NCBI GenBank assembly: GCA_016786465.1
Contig: JAEUWC010000013.1
Span: 1 to 64,000, forward strand
DNA: 64,000 bases
Source of the DNA: Bdellovibrionales bacterium
Lineage (GTDB): Bacteria; Bdellovibrionota; UBA1018
Direction of reading: 5' to 3'
Shown here: piece after piece, positions 29,879 through 38,388 of the stretch
How the letters are laid out: each line of letters starts with the position of its first letter
Numbering within the stretch: the first letter of the stretch is position 1
Program-made: the position numbers and the translations under genes
The notes under the pieces: generated by a model
The model's database searches: none
What the model saw: the letters and a program-made list of their open reading frames with translations, nothing else
Told to the model about the DNA's origin: nothing

Positions 29879-30096
29879 GCGCTTCTCCCCTGTACAAGGT
29901 TGATCTTCCCATCCAACAGGGTTTCAGAAATCCTTTCCTCGCCCCGTCTTCATTATCTGATAAGTGTCCCAGGAACCGGGAAGTGGTGTCAATGTGTCAC
30001 TGAAAGTATTTTGAAGGCTCTGACTTTTTTCGTGCGCATTGCGGGCGGCCATGTTTCCTTTTTGACATGGAAATTTTTCAAGAGCGCGCTCGAGTG

Positions 30097-30927
30097 ATGT
30101 CGAATCCCCAAAATTCGAACTGGAACGAAGTGGACGCAGAGTACCATCGAGTTTTGCTTCGAGTCCTTTCCGAAGGAACCCAGAAGGGCGATCGAACGGG
30201 AACGGGAACGCTGAGCGTCTTTGGCGAGCAAATGCGCTTTGATCTTTCCAAGGGCTTCCCGCTTTTGACCACCAAAAAGGTTCATCTGAAATCGATCATT
30301 CATGAACTTCTTTGGTTCATCCAAGGCGACACAAACACCAAGTACCTAAAAGACCATGGCGTCACCATTTGGGACGAATGGGCGGATCAGGACGGAAACC
30401 TGGGCCCGGTTTACGGCGCTCAGTGGAGATCTTGGAAGGCCGCGGATGGACGGACCATTGATCAACTTTCGCAAGTGATTGAAATGATCAAAAAGAACCC
30501 AAATTCTAGGCGTTTGATCGTGAACGCGTGGAACGTCGGCGAAATCGACAAGATGGCGCTTCCGCCTTGCCATGCGTTTTTCCAGTTCTATGTCGCTAAC
30601 GGAAAGCTTTCTTGCCAGCTGTACCAACGGTCGGCGGATCTTTTCTTGGGCGTTCCGTTTAACATCGCCAGCTATGCGCTTTTGACGATGATGATCGCGA
30701 AAGTCACGGGACTGGGATTGGGTGATTTTGTGCACACCTTGGGCGATGCGCACCTTTACAGCAATCACATGGATCAGACGAAGCTTCAGCTTTCGCGCGA
30801 TTCGCGCGCGATTCCCCAGATGAAGATCCACGGAAATCAGAAGGCGATCACCGACTTTAAATTCGAAGACTTCGAACTGGTTGGCTACGACCCTCATCCG
30901 GGAATCAAGGCTCCGGTGGCGGTTTAG
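30097..30927 (+). CDS. thyA: Thymidylate synthase
   Basis: 276 residues from the ATG at 30097; an in-frame ATG at 30067 would add ten poorly conserved residues. It converts dUMP to dTMP using methylene-THF. [13 protein letters not shown] at the N-terminus, the catalytic Cys in [12 protein letters not shown], and [21 protein letters not shown] are diagnostic. folA follows after a terminator-like hairpin, the usual partner because ThyA generates dihydrofolate. Confidence 0.96.
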
Positions 30928-30944
30928 TGCTCTGAGCACTTTTT
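30926..30944 (+). terminator. Terminator-like hairpin overlapping the thyA stop
   Basis: AGTGCTCTGAGCACT followed by TTTT. The stem begins inside the TAG stop codon of thyA (30925-30927). It separates thyA from folA, possibly attenuating read-through. Confidence 0.6.
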
Positions 30945-30991
30945 GATGCCGGATGCGTTAAAAGTGACTGAAAACCGGTCGTAGGAGAAAT

Positions 30992-31525
30992 GTGAAAGAT
31001 CCTAAAATTGTTTTGATCGCAGCGATGGCAAAAAACCGCGTGATCGGTCGCGACGGAAAATTGCCGTGGCATCTGCCCGAAGATCTTCAGTGGTTTCGAT
31101 CCAGAACCCTGGGCAAGCCCGTCATCATGGGCCGCAAGACTTATGAATCGTTGGGTAACCCACTTCCCAAGCGCCTGAATGTCGTGATCACTCGGGACAG
31201 TTCTTGGCGGTCCCGCGCAGGCGTACCCGAAGGTGTTCACGTGACTTCAGACATCGCTTTGGCCGTGAAGCTAGCGCAAGATCACGCGCGTGCGCACGGC
31301 TTGAATGAAATTTTTGTGATCGGTGGCGGAGAAATTTACGGCGAAGCCCTGAAGAAGGGTTTTGCCGACCAGTTGGATCTGACCGAAGTCGATGCCGTGA
31401 TCGATGGCGACGCCAGCTTTCCCGAATTCCCCAAGAACGCCTGGCGCGAAATCAAGCGCGACCACCGGGCAGCGGATTCGGGTCGTCCCGGATTTGATTT
31501 CGTCACCTATGAAAAAAATCATTGA
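30992..31525 (+). CDS. folA: Dihydrofolate reductase
   Basis: 177 residues from a GTG at 30992 with AGGAG five bases upstream. It reduces dihydrofolate to tetrahydrofolate with NADPH. Family residues visible: IAAMAKNRVIGRDGKLPWHLPEDLQWF (substrate region, read in parts), GRKTYESLG, and VIGGGEIYGEAL for the cofactor. The acidic residue at the catalytic position is Glu/Asp in HLPEDLQ. The next gene overlaps its end by 17 bases. Confidence 0.95.
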   Translation: MKDPKIVLIAAMAKNRVIGRDGKLPWHLPEDLQWFRSRTLGKPVIMGRKTYESLGNPLPKRLNVVITRDSSWRSRAGVPEGVHVTSDIALAVKLAQDHARAHGLNEIFVIGGGEIYGEALKKGFADQLDLTEVDAVIDGDASFPEFPKNAWREIKRDHRAADSGRPGFDFVTYEKNH

Positions 31526-32375
31526 ACGCCTTGCGACCTTTGCCGATCGGGTTCCTGAATTCGCCAAGATTCAAGACTTTCGCATTCAGGCTTGGGATGG
31601 CGTTTTCACCGCAGAAGCCGTCGGCGCAGCACCCGTTTTTCAGATTCCGGGTTTAGATCCCGCGACTTCGTTTGGGATTGGAACTTCCAAGGACCTGGCT
31701 GTGATGGATTGCGCGTCCGCGCTTTTGGAAGGGGCTTTTAGCCGTTTGGTGGATACGCCGGCGCTGGATGCCGCCATCCAGGCGGTGGGTGCGGGCTTTT
31801 CGGCGCAAACGGCGTTGGATCGTGCGCGACGTTTTGCCGTGACCCAGGCTGCGGTCGATTTTTGGCTGATTCAAGGCTGGCCGATTCCAGAAGTAACTGG
31901 ATCCGAATTGACCCATCAGGCGTTGAAAGCGCTTGGGCTTTCTGAAAACGACGGACCGGCTCGGTTTTTTTCCGCAAAGTGCATCGCCGCTTGGGGCGAT
32001 GGTGGCGGAGCCCTTCACGAATTTCGTGCCGTTTTGATTCCCGGAAAAAGTGACCGTGGAGCGATCGCATCTGAAACCGGAATCCTGGAATGGACCCGAT
32101 TCGGAGCAAGCGTCTTTCTTCAGCATGAAAGCGAAATCGAATGCTGGAAAAGGATCTTGGCTGAAGCGAAGAAGACCGTTTCGACCCTGGGGCGGATCGA
32201 TCCACCGCGCGCAAGCCTGCAGCGCCCGGTTCAGCCTGCGATGACGGCGGTTCAAACCAAGGTTGAAGAACAGATTCGGCGATTAGAAAAGCAGGGCGTG
32301 TTTTATGCGCGCGCGGGAATTCGATCGCCCATGGGACAGACCGGCCAAAGCGGTCCGGTTGGGGACAAGCACTAA
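31509..32375 (+). CDS. Protein of unknown function, translationally coupled to folA
   Basis: 288 residues from the ATG at 31509, inside the end of folA. Two segments, GIGTSKDLAVMDCASALLEG (about 56-75) and GAGFSAQTALDRARRFAV (about 95-112), are similar in layout: a Gly-rich turn, then an amphipathic helix ending in acidic or basic residues. Both recall ATP-binding helices of YcaO proteins, but the spacing is far too short and the similarity is not decisive. The C-terminal third is Pro/Gln-rich and basic. The partner gene and small size do not reveal a role. Confidence 0.55.
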   Translation: MKKIIERLATFADRVPEFAKIQDFRIQAWDGVFTAEAVGAAPVFQIPGLDPATSFGIGTSKDLAVMDCASALLEGAFSRLVDTPALDAAIQAVGAGFSAQTALDRARRFAVTQAAVDFWLIQGWPIPEVTGSELTHQALKALGLSENDGPARFFSAKCIAAWGDGGGALHEFRAVLIPGKSDRGAIASETGILEWTRFGASVFLQHESEIECWKRILAEAKKTVSTLGRIDPPRASLQRPVQPAMTAVQTKVEEQIRRLEKQGVFYARAGIRSPMGQTGQSGPVGDKH

Positions 32376-32378
32376 GGG

Positions 32379-32393
32379 GTTCAGTTACTGAAC
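32379..32393. terminator. Hairpin at convergent junction with metH-like gene
   Basis: GTTCAGTTACTGAAC is a 6-bp stem with a TTA loop. On the minus strand the loop is the TAA stop codon of the MetH-like gene. No T-run on the plus side, so terminator strength is doubtful. Confidence 0.35.
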
Positions 32394-34892
32394 GGCCCGG
32401 TACCCTAAGGCTTCCAGAACACGTTCGGTTTCACCGACGATGCTTCCGACGTCTTCGCTATGACCGTCAGCGCCGATTTCTTTCGCGAATTCATCCGTGA
32501 CCGGAGCCCCGCCCACTAAGACTTTGAACCCATAACCCTGCTTGCGGTTTTCTTCGATCAAAAGCTTCATTTGAATCATCGTCGTCGTCATCAACGCCGA
32601 AAGCGCGATGATCTGGGCTTTGTGCTTTCGGGCGGCGTCGAAGATTTCTTCCATCGAAACGTTTCGCCCCAGGTCGATGACCTCAAATCCGAAATTCCGA
32701 AGCATCAAGATGCAGATGTTCTTCCCGATGTCGTGAATATCGCCTTTGACGGTTGCAAAGATCACCGTCCCACGCTTTTGGGGGGTGCCGTCTTTGGATT
32801 CGACTTTCAAATAAGGCTGAAGGACTTCAACCCCGGCTTTCATGGCTTCGGCGGCTGCGACCAGGTGGGGGATGAAGCGTTTTCTTTTTCCAAATAGGTC
32901 ACCTAGGTAACGAATCGCGGGCGTCATGACGTTTAGGAAAAGACCAAACGATTCCTTGGAGCGCGTTTGAATGAAAAGGTTCAGATCCGTGATGATCTTG
33001 TCCTTCTTGCCGTCCAAGACGTCAAAATAGATTTCGCGAGAAAGCGCGTCCAACTTCATTTCAGCCGTAGGATCGGTTTCGGCGTCGTTTGCACTGGACG
33101 TCGTCGCCGCTTGGCCGGCGGCGCCTTCTTCGATGGGCTTTGAAAAATTTTCCAAGAAGTCTTCGGTCGAACGCGCCCGATTTCGAAAAAGATCGGCAGC
33201 GGCGACTCGAACGGTGATGTCGCGTTCCAAAACGTTCATGATCGCGCTGCTTAGGCCCCGTTGCATGGCGATCATCAAATAGGTCTGGTGAACAAAACGG
33301 CGGTTCGGAAGTCCAAACGATGAATTGCTTAAGCCAAAAGTCGTCGCGCAACCCAGTTCCCGGGTGATCATTTCAATGGCCGAAAAAGTTTCGATCGAAC
33401 CCTTCTTCATCGCCGAAGCGGTCAAGGCCAAGACGTCAAAGACGATGTCATTGCGTTTGAAACCGGCCTTCAGCATCCGATCCAGGATCTTTTGCGCGTA
33501 CTTCATTCGCCCAGCCGCTGTTTCAGGAACTTCGGTTTCCGTGGTCAAAGCCAAGACCGCCGCGCCCGTCTTTTGCGCAATCGGAATGACTTCATCCATT
33601 TTTTCGTCTTCGGCGTTTAGGCTATTCAATAGCGGGCGCCCGTAATAGCAGGATGCGCCGGTCAAAAGTGCCTTTGAAAAACTGGAATCGATGCAAAGCG
33701 GTTGTTCGATCGCGTTTTGAATCGCCGTGATGGTGTTTGCCATCATCGCCGGTTCATCAATCAGGGGAACGCCGACGTTGACGTCCAGAACATGGGCGCC
33801 GGCTTCAACCTGTGCGGCTGCATCGGCCATCAAGGCCTCGATGTTTCCTGCACGGATGTTTTCAGCGACTTTCTTACGACCGGTTGGATTGATTTTTTCT
33901 CCGATCATGACAAAGGGTTCGTCTGGACCAAGCGTCACGATTTTTTGTTTGCTGGAAAGAATCACGCGGTTTCGCGGCTTGATTTCCGTGGCCGAAAAAA
34001 GTTCGCGGCCCTTGGAATCGCGAATCTGTGCCAGGATCTTGATGTATTCAGGCGTCGTGCCGCAGCACCCACCCAAAACGCGCGCGCCGGCGTTGAAAAA
34101 CGATTCGGCATATCCGCCCATCTTTTCGGCATCCAAGGGAAAAACGGTCGTGCCGTTTTGAAGCTTGGGCATCCCGGCGTTGGGTTGCGCGCACACGGGA
34201 ATCTGGCTGACCTTCTTCATCCGCGAAATCACTTGAATCATCGCATCTGGGCCGACTGAACAGTTTGCGCCGACGACGTCAACGTGAAAGCCTTCGGCAA
34301 TCGCCACGCAGGATTCTGGGCTAATACCGGTATCTGAAATTCCGTCGGTGTTAAAGGTCATTAGTGCAATGACGGGAACGTCTTGGCTGACCGCACGGAT
34401 TCCAGAAAGCGCGGCTTTGTAATCCAGCGAATCGAACATGGTTTCAACGATCAAAAGATCGGCGCCCGCGCTGATCAGCGCATCGGCTTGTTCACGAAAA
34501 ATTTCAACGGCCGTTTCAAAGGGCAAGTTTCCGGTGGGGAAGATCGTATCGCCGCAAGGACCGATGTCGCCTGCGACAAAGCCTTTGTCGCCGACCACGC
34601 TTCGGGCGATTTCAACGGCGGCGCGATTGATTTCGCGCAACTTTCCGTAAGCGCCGTATTCCTGAAGGCGAAGCCGTGATGCTCCGAAAGTATTCGTGAT
34701 CAGAATGTCGGCGCCCGCATCGAAGTATTCCTGATGGACTTGTTTGATCGCGGATGGATTTTCCAGATTCCAAAGATCCGGCGCGTACCCGGGCGGAAGG
34801 TTTCTGCGCTGAAGAAGCGCGCCCATGGATCCGTCTAAAACCATCAGACGGCTAGCCAAAGTTTTTCTGAATTTTTCGTACCGCGCGTTCAA
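32385..34892 (-). CDS. metH: Cobalamin-dependent methionine synthase lacking the activation domain
   Basis: 835 residues. Domains: homocysteine-binding barrel with its zinc motif GGCCGTTPEY (about 1-295), pterin (methyl-THF) binding barrel beginning near GEKINPTGRKK (about 325-590), and B12-binding cap and Rossmann domains with DIHDIGKNI (the DxHxxG lower-ligand motif) and LVGGAPVTDEF near the end. E. coli MetH is 1227 residues; the C-terminal AdoMet activation domain is absent here. The gene starts at a TTG (34892) overlapping the RACo-like stop in a TTGA junction. Reactivation of oxidised B12 is therefore likely supplied in trans by the neighbour. Confidence 0.92.
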   Translation of the reverse strand: MNARYEKFRKTLASRLMVLDGSMGALLQRRNLPPGYAPDLWNLENPSAIKQVHQEYFDAGADILITNTFGASRLRLQEYGAYGKLREINRAAVEIARSVVGDKGFVAGDIGPCGDTIFPTGNLPFETAVEIFREQADALISAGADLLIVETMFDSLDYKAALSGIRAVSQDVPVIALMTFNTDGISDTGISPESCVAIAEGFHVDVVGANCSVGPDAMIQVISRMKKVSQIPVCAQPNAGMPKLQNGTTVFPLDAEKMGGYAESFFNAGARVLGGCCGTTPEYIKILAQIRDSKGRELFSATEIKPRNRVILSSKQKIVTLGPDEPFVMIGEKINPTGRKKVAENIRAGNIEALMADAAAQVEAGAHVLDVNVGVPLIDEPAMMANTITAIQNAIEQPLCIDSSFSKALLTGASCYYGRPLLNSLNAEDEKMDEVIPIAQKTGAAVLALTTETEVPETAAGRMKYAQKILDRMLKAGFKRNDIVFDVLALTASAMKKGSIETFSAIEMITRELGCATTFGLSNSSFGLPNRRFVHQTYLMIAMQRGLSSAIMNVLERDITVRVAAADLFRNRARSTEDFLENFSKPIEEGAAGQAATTSSANDAETDPTAEMKLDALSREIYFDVLDGKKDKIITDLNLFIQTRSKESFGLFLNVMTPAIRYLGDLFGKRKRFIPHLVAAAEAMKAGVEVLQPYLKVESKDGTPQKRGTVIFATVKGDIHDIGKNICILMLRNFGFEVIDLGRNVSMEEIFDAARKHKAQIIALSALMTTTMIQMKLLIEENRKQGYGFKVLVGGAPVTDEFAKEIGADGHSEDVGSIVGETERVLEALGYRAVQ

Positions 34893-36469
34893 GCTGGGCT
34901 TCTTTCTTGATTGTTAGCTGCTTTATCGGCCTCGGGGCCTGCTTCTAAATGCATGTTCTTCACGAACAGGTCCTGGAAGCGATCGCTTAAAGACAGTTCA
35001 AAAGGCATTTTGACCGTATTCAGCCAGCTTTGAAAGGCTTTCCTTTTTTCGCCCGAAGCCTGGGCCCAAAGAAGCGTTCCATCCAAGCTGGAATTGCCAA
35101 GCGTGCGGGTGGTCATCCGGGGCAGCATCCCCAGCCAGCGGCTTTCGTCTAGCGGCAGGTTTTGACCAAAAGCCCCGGCTAGATACAGGGTCTTGGGCTT
35201 CACGGTCATTTTTTCAATGACCAGGTCCAGCCCCGATCGAATCGCTGACTTGGCCAGTTGAAATTCGCGGATATCGTCCTGTGAAAGGGAAAGACCCTGC
35301 GTGAAGGCTAGGCCAGCTTCGCGCAGAACTTCGCCGTCGGCCTTGATGACGCCCCCGCGAACCATTTCATAAACTGACTGCACCAGCGCAGAACCGCAGA
35401 TTCCCTTTGGGGTATCCCCGCCGATGACGGAATACGTCCAATCGCCTGATGTTCCGGCCCCTTCTGGTTTCGTTTGCAACCTTGGATTCGTGATCGCGCC
35501 GTTTTCAGCGCGCATTCCGATGCTGATGTTGGATCCTTCAAACGCCGGCCCAGCGGGTGTGGATGAAACCCAAAGCTTCGTTCCGTCCCAACCTAGGATT
35601 TCGGAATTGGTTCCCACATCCGTCAAGATCCAAGGATTCCCGGACATCGCTTCGGCTGTGCCGCCAGCCTGGGTCCAAAGAACAAAAAGGCCCGCAAAAA
35701 GATCGCCGCCGATGAAGCTGGTCAAAAGCGGCAGGGTCGTCCAAGTGACGTGATCCAGGGCGACGGTTTGTGATTCCAAAGTGATGGGTTGGTAGGGGGC
35801 GACGGCCAGTTGAGCGATTTCAAGTCTGGCCAGAAAACTAGTGACGGCAGAATTTCCGGCCAAAAATCCTTTTTTGGAATCGCCGCAAGCGTTCCAAGTC
35901 GCGCCAAAGTTTTTCTGGCCCGCTTCGTTCACTTTCGCAACCAACGCGTTCAGTTGTTCGGCCGATTTTTGAAAAAGCGGTTCCACGCCGTTGCGCTGGG
36001 CGTATTCCAAGCGGGTCATGATGTCGGCGCCTTGAACCACGCTTTTGCTTAAGGCCGCGATCCGAATCAATTCGCCGTTTTGATCACAGGCCATGACTTC
36101 AATCCCGGTGGTTCCCAGGTCACAAACCCAGTGGATTTCAGAAGCCGGGGCGCGTGTCACAGTGATTATTTCGCCAAAGACATAGGCTTGTGGAAAGAAA
36201 ACTGAAATCGCGGTTTTAGGTCGGATGCAACAGGACAGACGCCAGCCTTCGCGGATGCGTTCTTCAGAAAAACTTTTGCGATCTGCGGAAGAAACCGCAG
36301 CAACACCGGATTCGACTTTGACCCGGCACTGGCGGCAGATCCCTTTTCCCAGGCAAGACGATTTGATGGGGACGCCCGCTTGCTGAAGAAGTTCAAGAAG
36401 CGATGGCCCGGCAAACCCGCGGGTCTGAAACTTCTGATCCGTCGAGCGCGCCTGGATCGGAAAATTCAT
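34889..36469 (-). CDS. RACo-like ATP-dependent reductive activator ([2Fe-2S] + ASKHA/DUF4445)
   Basis: 526 residues. The N-terminal ferredoxin-like domain has the plant-type cluster pattern C39-x5-C45-x2-C48 and C80. From about residue 115 there is an ASKHA-type ATPase domain (CDLGTTGIEV at 115-125) continuing as DUF4445 to the end, including NSEILGWDG and AGAFGQNLP. Characterised members (RACo, RamA) reduce inactive Co(II) corrinoid proteins to Co(I) using ATP. It lies between the MetF fusion and MetH with 4-base overlaps on both sides. That strongly suggests it reactivates this MetH, whose own activation domain is missing. Confidence 0.88.
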   Translation of the reverse strand: MNFPIQARSTDQKFQTRGFAGPSLLELLQQAGVPIKSSCLGKGICRQCRVKVESGVAAVSSADRKSFSEERIREGWRLSCCIRPKTAISVFFPQAYVFGEIITVTRAPASEIHWVCDLGTTGIEVMACDQNGELIRIAALSKSVVQGADIMTRLEYAQRNGVEPLFQKSAEQLNALVAKVNEAGQKNFGATWNACGDSKKGFLAGNSAVTSFLARLEIAQLAVAPYQPITLESQTVALDHVTWTTLPLLTSFIGGDLFAGLFVLWTQAGGTAEAMSGNPWILTDVGTNSEILGWDGTKLWVSSTPAGPAFEGSNISIGMRAENGAITNPRLQTKPEGAGTSGDWTYSVIGGDTPKGICGSALVQSVYEMVRGGVIKADGEVLREAGLAFTQGLSLSQDDIREFQLAKSAIRSGLDLVIEKMTVKPKTLYLAGAFGQNLPLDESRWLGMLPRMTTRTLGNSSLDGTLLWAQASGEKRKAFQSWLNTVKMPFELSLSDRFQDLFVKNMHLEAGPEADKAANNQERSPA

Positions 36470-38388
36470 TTTGAATGGGCTCCGATCAGTTTGGATACGA
36501 TGTCAACCCGTCCCAGGGGCGCGCTGATGCAAACCCCTGAAGCCACCGAACGGATTTCTTCCATGACTTTCAGTGCGATATCGATACCGCGCTTGATTGC
36601 GTCGGCCTTGGCTTCAGGCGAATCGGTCGATCCGTTTGCGTCGGCTGACTTTTCCATTTCCTTTAAGACCCAGGTCGGAACATGAAGGCCCGGAACTTCG
36701 TTGGCCATGAATTCGGCGTTTCGAAGGCTGATCAAGGGCCAGATTCCAACGACATGGGGAATGGCTTTGTCGCCTAAGCGATCCATCCAGCGAAGGAAAC
36801 TTTCGCTATCAAAAATCGGCTGAGTGATCGCAAAATCGGCACCGCTTTCCAGTTTGTAAAGGTAGCGTTGGTGTTCCAGTTCCAGGTTGATCGCCGTTGG
36901 GTTGGTCGCCACGCCGATTCCAAATGAAGTTCCGCGCCCGATGGATTCGCCGCTGGGGGTGATCCCGCGGTTTAAGCAATCGGCTAGGTAAGTCAGGCCG
37001 ATGGAATCGATGTCGTAAACCGCAGTCGCTTCACGGTTATTTCCCAGTTTTGGGGGATCTCCGGTCACGATCAGGACATCGGTAACTCCGTTCACGTAAG
37101 CGCCCAAAAGATCGGATTGAAGCGCGATCAGGTTTCGATCGCGGGTCGTGAAGTGAGGAATCGCGTGCATCGCGCCTTTTGTTCGCGACTGAACCAACGA
37201 AGCCAGGTGCATGGAATTCACGCGGGTCATGGCGCGTGCGCCATCGGGAATATTGATCAGATCGACGCCTGTTTTTTGAAGAAGTTCGATGCCTTCAAAA
37301 AATTTCACCAGATCCGTGCCCTTGGGCGGCAGAACTTCAACCGAAAGAACTTTCTTTCCGGCGTTTAAGATCTGGCCGATCTTGGATTCCTTTCGGTCGG
37401 CCAAGGACCGCCGGGGCTGGGATTCAGAAGTCCCAGGTGTGGTCCCGCCTTTGACCGCTCCCGCATCCTGCTTCTTCGTTCGGTTCATGCCCGCGATGCC
37501 GCCGTAAATCTGGGCGTCGACCATCTTCAGCGAATGCGCAATGGCGTGAATATGTTCGGGGCGGGTTCCGCAGCAACCGCCGACGCCTGCGGCGCCTGCT
37601 TCAGCAAATCGTTTGGCGAATTTTGCGACGTAATCGGGCGACGACATATAAAAGTATCGACCGTTGACGTGTCTGGGCGTGCCGGCGTTGGGCTGAATGA
37701 TCAGCGGCTTTTGGGTCAGGGGCTTTAAAAACTTCAGCGAAACATAAAGATCGCTAGGGCCTTCGCTGCAGTTCAGTCCCAAGTACTGAATGTCGGTTCG
37801 TTCGCCGATTCGCTTTGCGAATTCCGTCAAAAGATCCTTTTGGCTGGATTTCACAGAAAGGCTAGCGACGATCGGGCGCACGGGATCGACCTTACGAATG
37901 CCTTCGATTGCGACTTCAAGTTCCGCGATCTGGGTAAAGGTTTCTAGGATGTAAAGGTCGAAGTCCTGTCCGGATTGGCAGGCGCTACTGGCAATCAGAC
38001 GGAATTCTTCTTTCGCATCTGAAAGCGCGAAAGGTCCCAGCGGTTCAACCAAGACGCCTAACGGACCCATCGAAAGCGCGACCTGAACTTTGTCGTGACC
38101 TTTTCGCGCATGGTTTGCGTTTTTCAGCGCGGCCTGAATGATTTCAAAAAGTTTTTGGTCGATGTCGAATTCTTTCAACTGGGGCCTGGACGCGCCAAAG
38201 GTGTTGGTCGTCAGGACCTGTGCGCCGGCTTCGATATAGGCCAAGTGGACATTGGCAACGTCAGCAGGGGACGAAAGGTTCAGTTCTTCGAACGGGCGGT
38301 TGATGAAAAAACCGCGTTCGTAAAGTTCGGTGCCCATTCCGCCGTCGAAGACGAGGATGGAACTTTGAGGAGTCGATTGAGGGGGCAT
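36466..38388 (-). CDS. Bifunctional homocysteine S-methyltransferase / methylenetetrahydrofolate reductase
   Basis: 640 residues. The N-terminal half (about 1-290) is a homocysteine methyltransferase barrel with DGGMGTELY and zinc-binding Cys in GLNCSEGP and GGCCGTRPEH. A linker rich in Lys and Ser (about 300-340) joins a MetF-like barrel (about 345-630) with VEVLPPKGTD, ITQPIFD and FGIGVATNPTA. Fusions of this layout, such as YitJ of Bacillus, make methyl-THF and can transfer methyl groups. It is the first gene of an operon with the RACo-like gene and metH, all with ATGA/TTGA overlaps. Confidence 0.9.
   Translation of the reverse strand: MPPQSTPQSSILVFDGGMGTELYERGFFINRPFEELNLSSPADVANVHLAYIEAGAQVLTTNTFGASRPQLKEFDIDQKLFEIIQAALKNANHARKGHDKVQVALSMGPLGVLVEPLGPFALSDAKEEFRLIASSACQSGQDFDLYILETFTQIAELEVAIEGIRKVDPVRPIVASLSVKSSQKDLLTEFAKRIGERTDIQYLGLNCSEGPSDLYVSLKFLKPLTQKPLIIQPNAGTPRHVNGRYFYMSSPDYVAKFAKRFAEAGAAGVGGCCGTRPEHIHAIAHSLKMVDAQIYGGIAGMNRTKKQDAGAVKGGTTPGTSESQPRRSLADRKESKIGQILNAGKKVLSVEVLPPKGTDLVKFFEGIELLQKTGVDLINIPDGARAMTRVNSMHLASLVQSRTKGAMHAIPHFTTRDRNLIALQSDLLGAYVNGVTDVLIVTGDPPKLGNNREATAVYDIDSIGLTYLADCLNRGITPSGESIGRGTSFGIGVATNPTAINLELEHQRYLYKLESGADFAITQPIFDSESFLRWMDRLGDKAIPHVVGIWPLISLRNAEFMANEVPGLHVPTWVLKEMEKSADANGSTDSPEAKADAIKRGIDIALKVMEEIRSVASGVCISAPLGRVDIVSKLIGAHSK

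Follow-up and report, generated by a model that had tools for sequence, protein, structure and literature searches.

A methionine operon of a Bdellovibrionales bacterium joins a MetH without activation domain to its probable ATP-driven reactivator, a RACo-like protein

Three genes follow one another on the minus strand of the 64,000-nucleotide stretch of Bdellovibrionales DNA that we analysed (contig JAEUWC010000013.1, positions 1 to 64,000; 'the window'). The first (36466..38388) encodes a 640-residue bifunctional homocysteine S-methyltransferase/methylenetetrahydrofolate reductase (HMT-MTHFR) of the PRK08645 type, the second (34889..36469) a 526-residue putative RACo-like reductive activator (DUF4445), and the third (32385..34892), with a TTG start, an 835-residue MetH that has no AdoMet-activation domain. 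An earlier note, made from the letters alone, had described three genes with four-base overlaps, and we find them as described: a start/stop overlap of sequence ATGA (36466..36469) connects the HMT-MTHFR gene to the RACo-like gene, and a second, TTGA (34889..34892), connects the RACo-like gene to metH. The three genes very probably constitute one methionine-synthesis operon, a judgement that we make for the whole explanation below, ATP-driven reactivation of MetH included. Close downstream and on the opposite strand are thyA-like and folA-like genes (window 30067-31525, recognised by eye from the ORF translations), so that folate one-carbon genes cluster in this region. A 323-residue ORF (31404-32375), convergent with metH, overlaps the end of the folA-like gene and has no Pfam or NCBIfam match. 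No Rfam family, riboswitches included, reached its gathering score within the window, and control of the operon by a B12 or SAM riboswitch is consequently unsupported.

The product of the first gene combines S-methyl_trans and MTHFR domains (Pfam) and scores 560.8 bits against the NCBIfam model for bifunctional HMT/MTHFR (NF006396, cut-off 453), in agreement with the fusion that the earlier note had proposed. MetH contains S-methyl_trans, Pterin_bind, B12-binding_2 and B12-binding domains, laid out as homocysteine methyltransferase (residues 17-289), pterin-binding (332-552), B12 cap (620-691) and B12-binding (709-814) regions; the chain ends at residue 835 with B12-binding as its last domain and with Met_synt_B12 absent, as had been claimed for it. 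The presence of the homocysteine, folate, B12-cap and B12-binding domains in a single chain, together with the cobalamin motif DxHxxG (D718-G723), identifies a B12-dependent MetH, one that scores below the cut-off of the canonical full-length model TIGR02082 (478.7 bits versus 1010.85). Its relatives in the PDB are MetH structures, and the alignment extends only as far as their B12 domain. The zinc cysteines (NCS...GGCC) are kept in both HMT domains, that of MetH and that of the fusion, which would allow the HMT of the fusion to be active; it could then make methionine from another methyl donor while MetH has decayed or become non-essential. We consider this most improbable, since MetH is intact, with its full set of catalytic domains and the cobalamin motif, and relatives retain it at 51-77% identity. 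MetE was not found in this genome; consequently, MetH is the only methionine synthase that we recognise, unless the HMT domain of the fusion is active as well.

The protein encoded between the fusion and MetH consists of Fer2, Raco_middle and RACo_C_ter domains (Pfam). RACo_C_ter (PF14574) is matched with 161.9 bits against a cut-off of 27, Raco_middle (PF17651) with 52.7 bits against 26.8, and the Fer2 domain, of the plant-type [2Fe-2S] kind, with 41.6 bits. The [2Fe-2S]-ASKHA/DUF4445 protein with a C39-x5-C45-x2-C48...C80 pattern, as first read from the translation, is borne out by these domains and by the cysteines, and C39, C45, C48 and C80 are invariant across four homologous family members. 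The protein does not reach the cut-offs of the RamA model TIGR04270 (63.8 bits versus 500) or the AcsV model NF040756 (174.7 bits versus 800). Its predicted structure has a mean pLDDT of 71, with a low-confidence Fer2 part whose placement is too uncertain for electron-transfer geometry. A Foldseek search with this model returned the RACo entries 3zyy and 4c1n (E about 1e-24), and the VIA Z scores of residues 107-514 were 29.8 for 3zyy and 26.6 for 4c1n, the best entry other than RACo scoring 13.9; as the two RACo entries stand far above the rest, the ASKHA part is predicted to have the RACo fold. By its domains and predicted fold, the protein would be a RACo/RACE-type corrinoid reductive activator.

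We now consider which corrinoid protein such an activator would serve. The genome encodes one RACo_C_ter protein and has five B12-binding matches, MetH included. The other four (a methylmalonyl-CoA mutase small subunit, an aminomutase-like protein, a MerR/CarH-type regulator and a radical-SAM protein) were dismissed as clients by their domain content. Among the non-regulatory proteins found in this genome, only MetH has the paired cap and B12 domains of a methyl-corrinoid protein, and of the five it is presumably the only one whose cobalt cycles between methyl-Co(III) and Co(I), as in the proteins that RACo-type activators repair. MetH is, on its domain content, the only plausible client here. 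One may object that relatives of RACo act on a wide range of corrinoid methyltransferases and that most distant RACo loci adjoin other CAP/B12 proteins, so that the RACo-like protein could reactivate some other corrinoid protein and its gene would stand beside metH incidentally. That reading has very little probability in our view: we found no further methyl-transfer corrinoid protein in the genome, and the RACo-metH linkage, with its four-base overlaps, is conserved across genera.

The finding that would speak against the proposal, according to the earlier note, was a distinct AdoMet-activation gene at another place in the genome, and we sought one with two profiles. The Pfam profile of the fused-type domain (PF02965) found nothing in this genome with the limit relaxed to E<=1, where it still picks up the Thermotoga maritima control. 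Some stand-alone activation proteins escape Pfam, however; the one encoded at locus L054 has no Pfam match yet resembles 1J6R. We therefore built a broader profile, using 15 activation domains of both the stand-alone and the fused kind; among PDB entries, it recognises 1J6R as well as the activation domains fused to MetH in E. coli and Thermus. It matches the genomes of L054 and L114 with E below 1e-67, and found nothing in those of L038, L040, L048 and L053. In some Bacillota (L054, L114), stand-alone activation-domain proteins do occur beside an ACT-less MetH and RACo, and by analogy a diverged AdoMet-activation protein might serve our MetH in trans, as in Thermotoga, leaving the RACo-like protein to do something else or merely to help. 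At E<=1, the broader profile found nothing in this genome or in six others of the phylum, namely the five other RACo-bearing members of the family and G064, which holds a fragment of a window-type MetH and no RACo match. The genome is estimated to be 97% complete, so a gene could be missed; even so, we assign the trans-acting protein only a slight probability. DUF1638 (PF07796) is likewise without a match in this genome at E<=1.

Reactivation by the RACo-like protein also agrees with the distribution of the two systems. RACo_C_ter occurs in 4 and PF02965 in 143 of the 192 genomes of the phylum sample, with no overlap; within the bacterium's own family the counts are 6 and 22 of 35, again with no overlap (Fisher p = 0.004 for the phylum and 0.001 for the family, both uncorrected and calculated with shared ancestry ignored). 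The exclusion reaches into a single genus, g7, where G193 has RACo without PF02965 and G194 has PF02965 without RACo. RACo adjoins MetH in five of the six RACo-bearing family genomes (G000, G085, G103, G193 and G199) and at distant loci; in the sixth, G089, RACo follows an MTHFR gene and MetH lies on a different contig. A contig-end MetH fragment (L021, G064:C176:1-948), 69% identical to the MetH of the window, comes from another family of the phylum, f13. In the phylum sample, RACo_C_ter was not matched in its source genome, and the fragment is possibly a product of transfer or contamination.

A survey of 80 RACo loci from named genomes extends the linkage further. The order fusion-RACo-MetH recurs in two more metagenome-assembled genomes, L038 (Bdellovibrionales), which is the nearest named relative of the window, and L040 (Deltaproteobacteria); a RACo-MetH pair is found at L039 and L048, and MetH-RACo accompanied by an MTHFR gene at L053, L054 and L114. 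None of the RACo-adjacent MetHs whose C-terminal end is seen has a fused activation domain (the L039 MetH is cut by the contig end). PF02965 was matched in one of the ten genomes behind such RACo loci, weakly, and in that genome (G212) RACo has no adjoining MetH. The RACo ORF of the RIFCSPHIGHO2_12_FULL_43_9 operon (L040:8125-9621) is without a detectable Fer2 domain, possibly owing to an assembly frameshift. Two Bacillota operons (L054:3662-9614 and L114:3433-9707) contain an MTHFR gene, a stand-alone activation domain, a MetH without fused domain and RACo. Sinorhizobium, too, carries both RACo-type and AdoMet-type systems (PMC5764234), and RACo is consequently no universal substitute. At 13 of the 80 loci (L061, L101, L102, L105, L056, L068, L083, L077, L069, L089, L108, L107 and L086), an ORF for a 1J6R-like (Thermotoga-type) activation domain lies less than 300 bp from the RACo gene or in frame with it; at L069, the activation domain and RACo share a single open frame of 803 residues. 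A full MetH nearby is mostly absent from these 13 loci, where the two proteins possibly have a paired role in corrinoid reactivation.

How the pair came to this genome is suggested by a tree of 25 MetHs, whose AdoMet-domain members were sampled from this phylum and which carries long-branch warnings for L048 and L020. The nine RACo-linked MetHs, that of the window among them, form one group (100/100), and MetHs of the same phylum outside it nearly all have activation domains. The MetH of the window is thus no truncated local copy, and because it stands apart from the AdoMet-domain MetHs of its own family, the RACo-MetH pair looks, from these sequences, like a replacement cassette. A broader proposal, to which we give slightly less than an even chance, is that RACo and the ACT-less MetH form a horizontally moving two-gene module that has repeatedly replaced the AdoMet-reactivated MetH inside one family, down to the level of a single genus, and that needs neither DUF1638 nor an AdoMet-activation domain to be self-sufficient. 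If true, the module would be a complete exchange of reactivation chemistry in a central enzyme.

We consider it highly likely that the RACo-like protein reactivates MetH by ATP-driven reduction of Co(II) to Co(I). The MTHFR would produce methyl-tetrahydrofolate, whose methyl group would pass to the cob(I)alamin of MetH and from there to homocysteine. Occasional oxidation of Co(I) would yield inactive Co(II). The RACo-like protein would then bind the B12 domain of MetH, its [2Fe-2S] cluster would receive an electron from a cellular reductant, and its use of ATP would drive Co(II) back to Co(I), a step that would stand in for the reductive methylation by AdoMet, which needs the missing C-terminal domain. 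The basis of this account in our analysis is gene content, domain architecture, fold similarity, the absence and mutual exclusion of the AdoMet-activation domain, and conserved linkage; we infer the RACo-MetH interaction, the ATP use, the electron flow and the choice of electron donor. The replacement of AdoMet reactivation by ATP-driven reduction, proposed in the earlier note, gains support from the missing domain, the mutual exclusion and the sole plausible client. The operon would be a compact, cleanly linked example of methionine synthase upkeep that is driven by ATP and not by AdoMet. It also holds a warning for annotation: a MetH without activation domain in a MetE-less genome does not amount to methionine auxotrophy.

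The idea of ATP-driven MetH reactivation is already known: the prediction dates from 2009, and mutant fitness data lent it support in 2018. Price et al. (2018) inferred B12 reactivation by DUF4445 proteins in diverse bacteria and named Ferguson et al. 2009 as the source of the prediction (PMC5764234), and a 2025 paper on marine bacteria makes the same DUF4445 assignment (PMC12478193). The way in which ATP powers the reduction of Co(II) is a subject of study in related systems, those of O-demethylase and CoFeSP (PMC6739815). Our literature search found no Bdellovibrio-specific description of this operon and no biochemistry of any RACo-MetH pair, and the pair described here is convenient for the in vitro test that the Desulfovibrio and Phaeobacter genetics imply.

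Those genetics provide the closest comparison. Methionine synthesis in Phaeobacter inhibens depends on a ferredoxin+DUF4445 protein as well as on a DUF1638 protein, and in Desulfovibrio a MetH without PF02965 is cofit with a DUF4445 protein (r = 0.92) (PMC5764234). In both, as is proposed here, a B12-dependent methionine synthase without PF02965 is sustained by a protein that combines ferredoxin and DUF4445 domains, and the combination that marks this kind of system, such a synthase together with DUF4445 in a PF02965-free genome, is found in our bacterium. Unlike Phaeobacter, which has a split MetH and needs DUF1638 besides, and unlike Desulfovibrio, one of whose partner proteins (DvMF_1398) has two DUF4445 domains (PMC5764234), the present genome places the RACo-like gene and metH in a single operon with the HMT-MTHFR fusion, and DUF1638 is absent. 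The MetH of the Thermotoga-type system (1J6R) likewise has no fused activation domain, but its stand-alone activation protein is absent here. RamA of methanogens has the DUF4445 core in common and, presumably, ATP-driven corrinoid reduction, although our protein does not reach the RamA cut-off. RACo of Carboxydothermus hydrogenoformans (3zyy, 4c1n) has the same Fer2, Raco_middle and ASKHA composition, and its ASKHA part superposes with a Z of 29.8; at about 25% identity, Fer2 and ASKHA align, whereas the linker of about 110 residues that lies between Fer2 and the middle domain of that protein is absent here. Its client is CoFeSP, and the client here would be MetH. In a lineage for which our literature search found no description, the locus is a single-operon member of a known mechanism.
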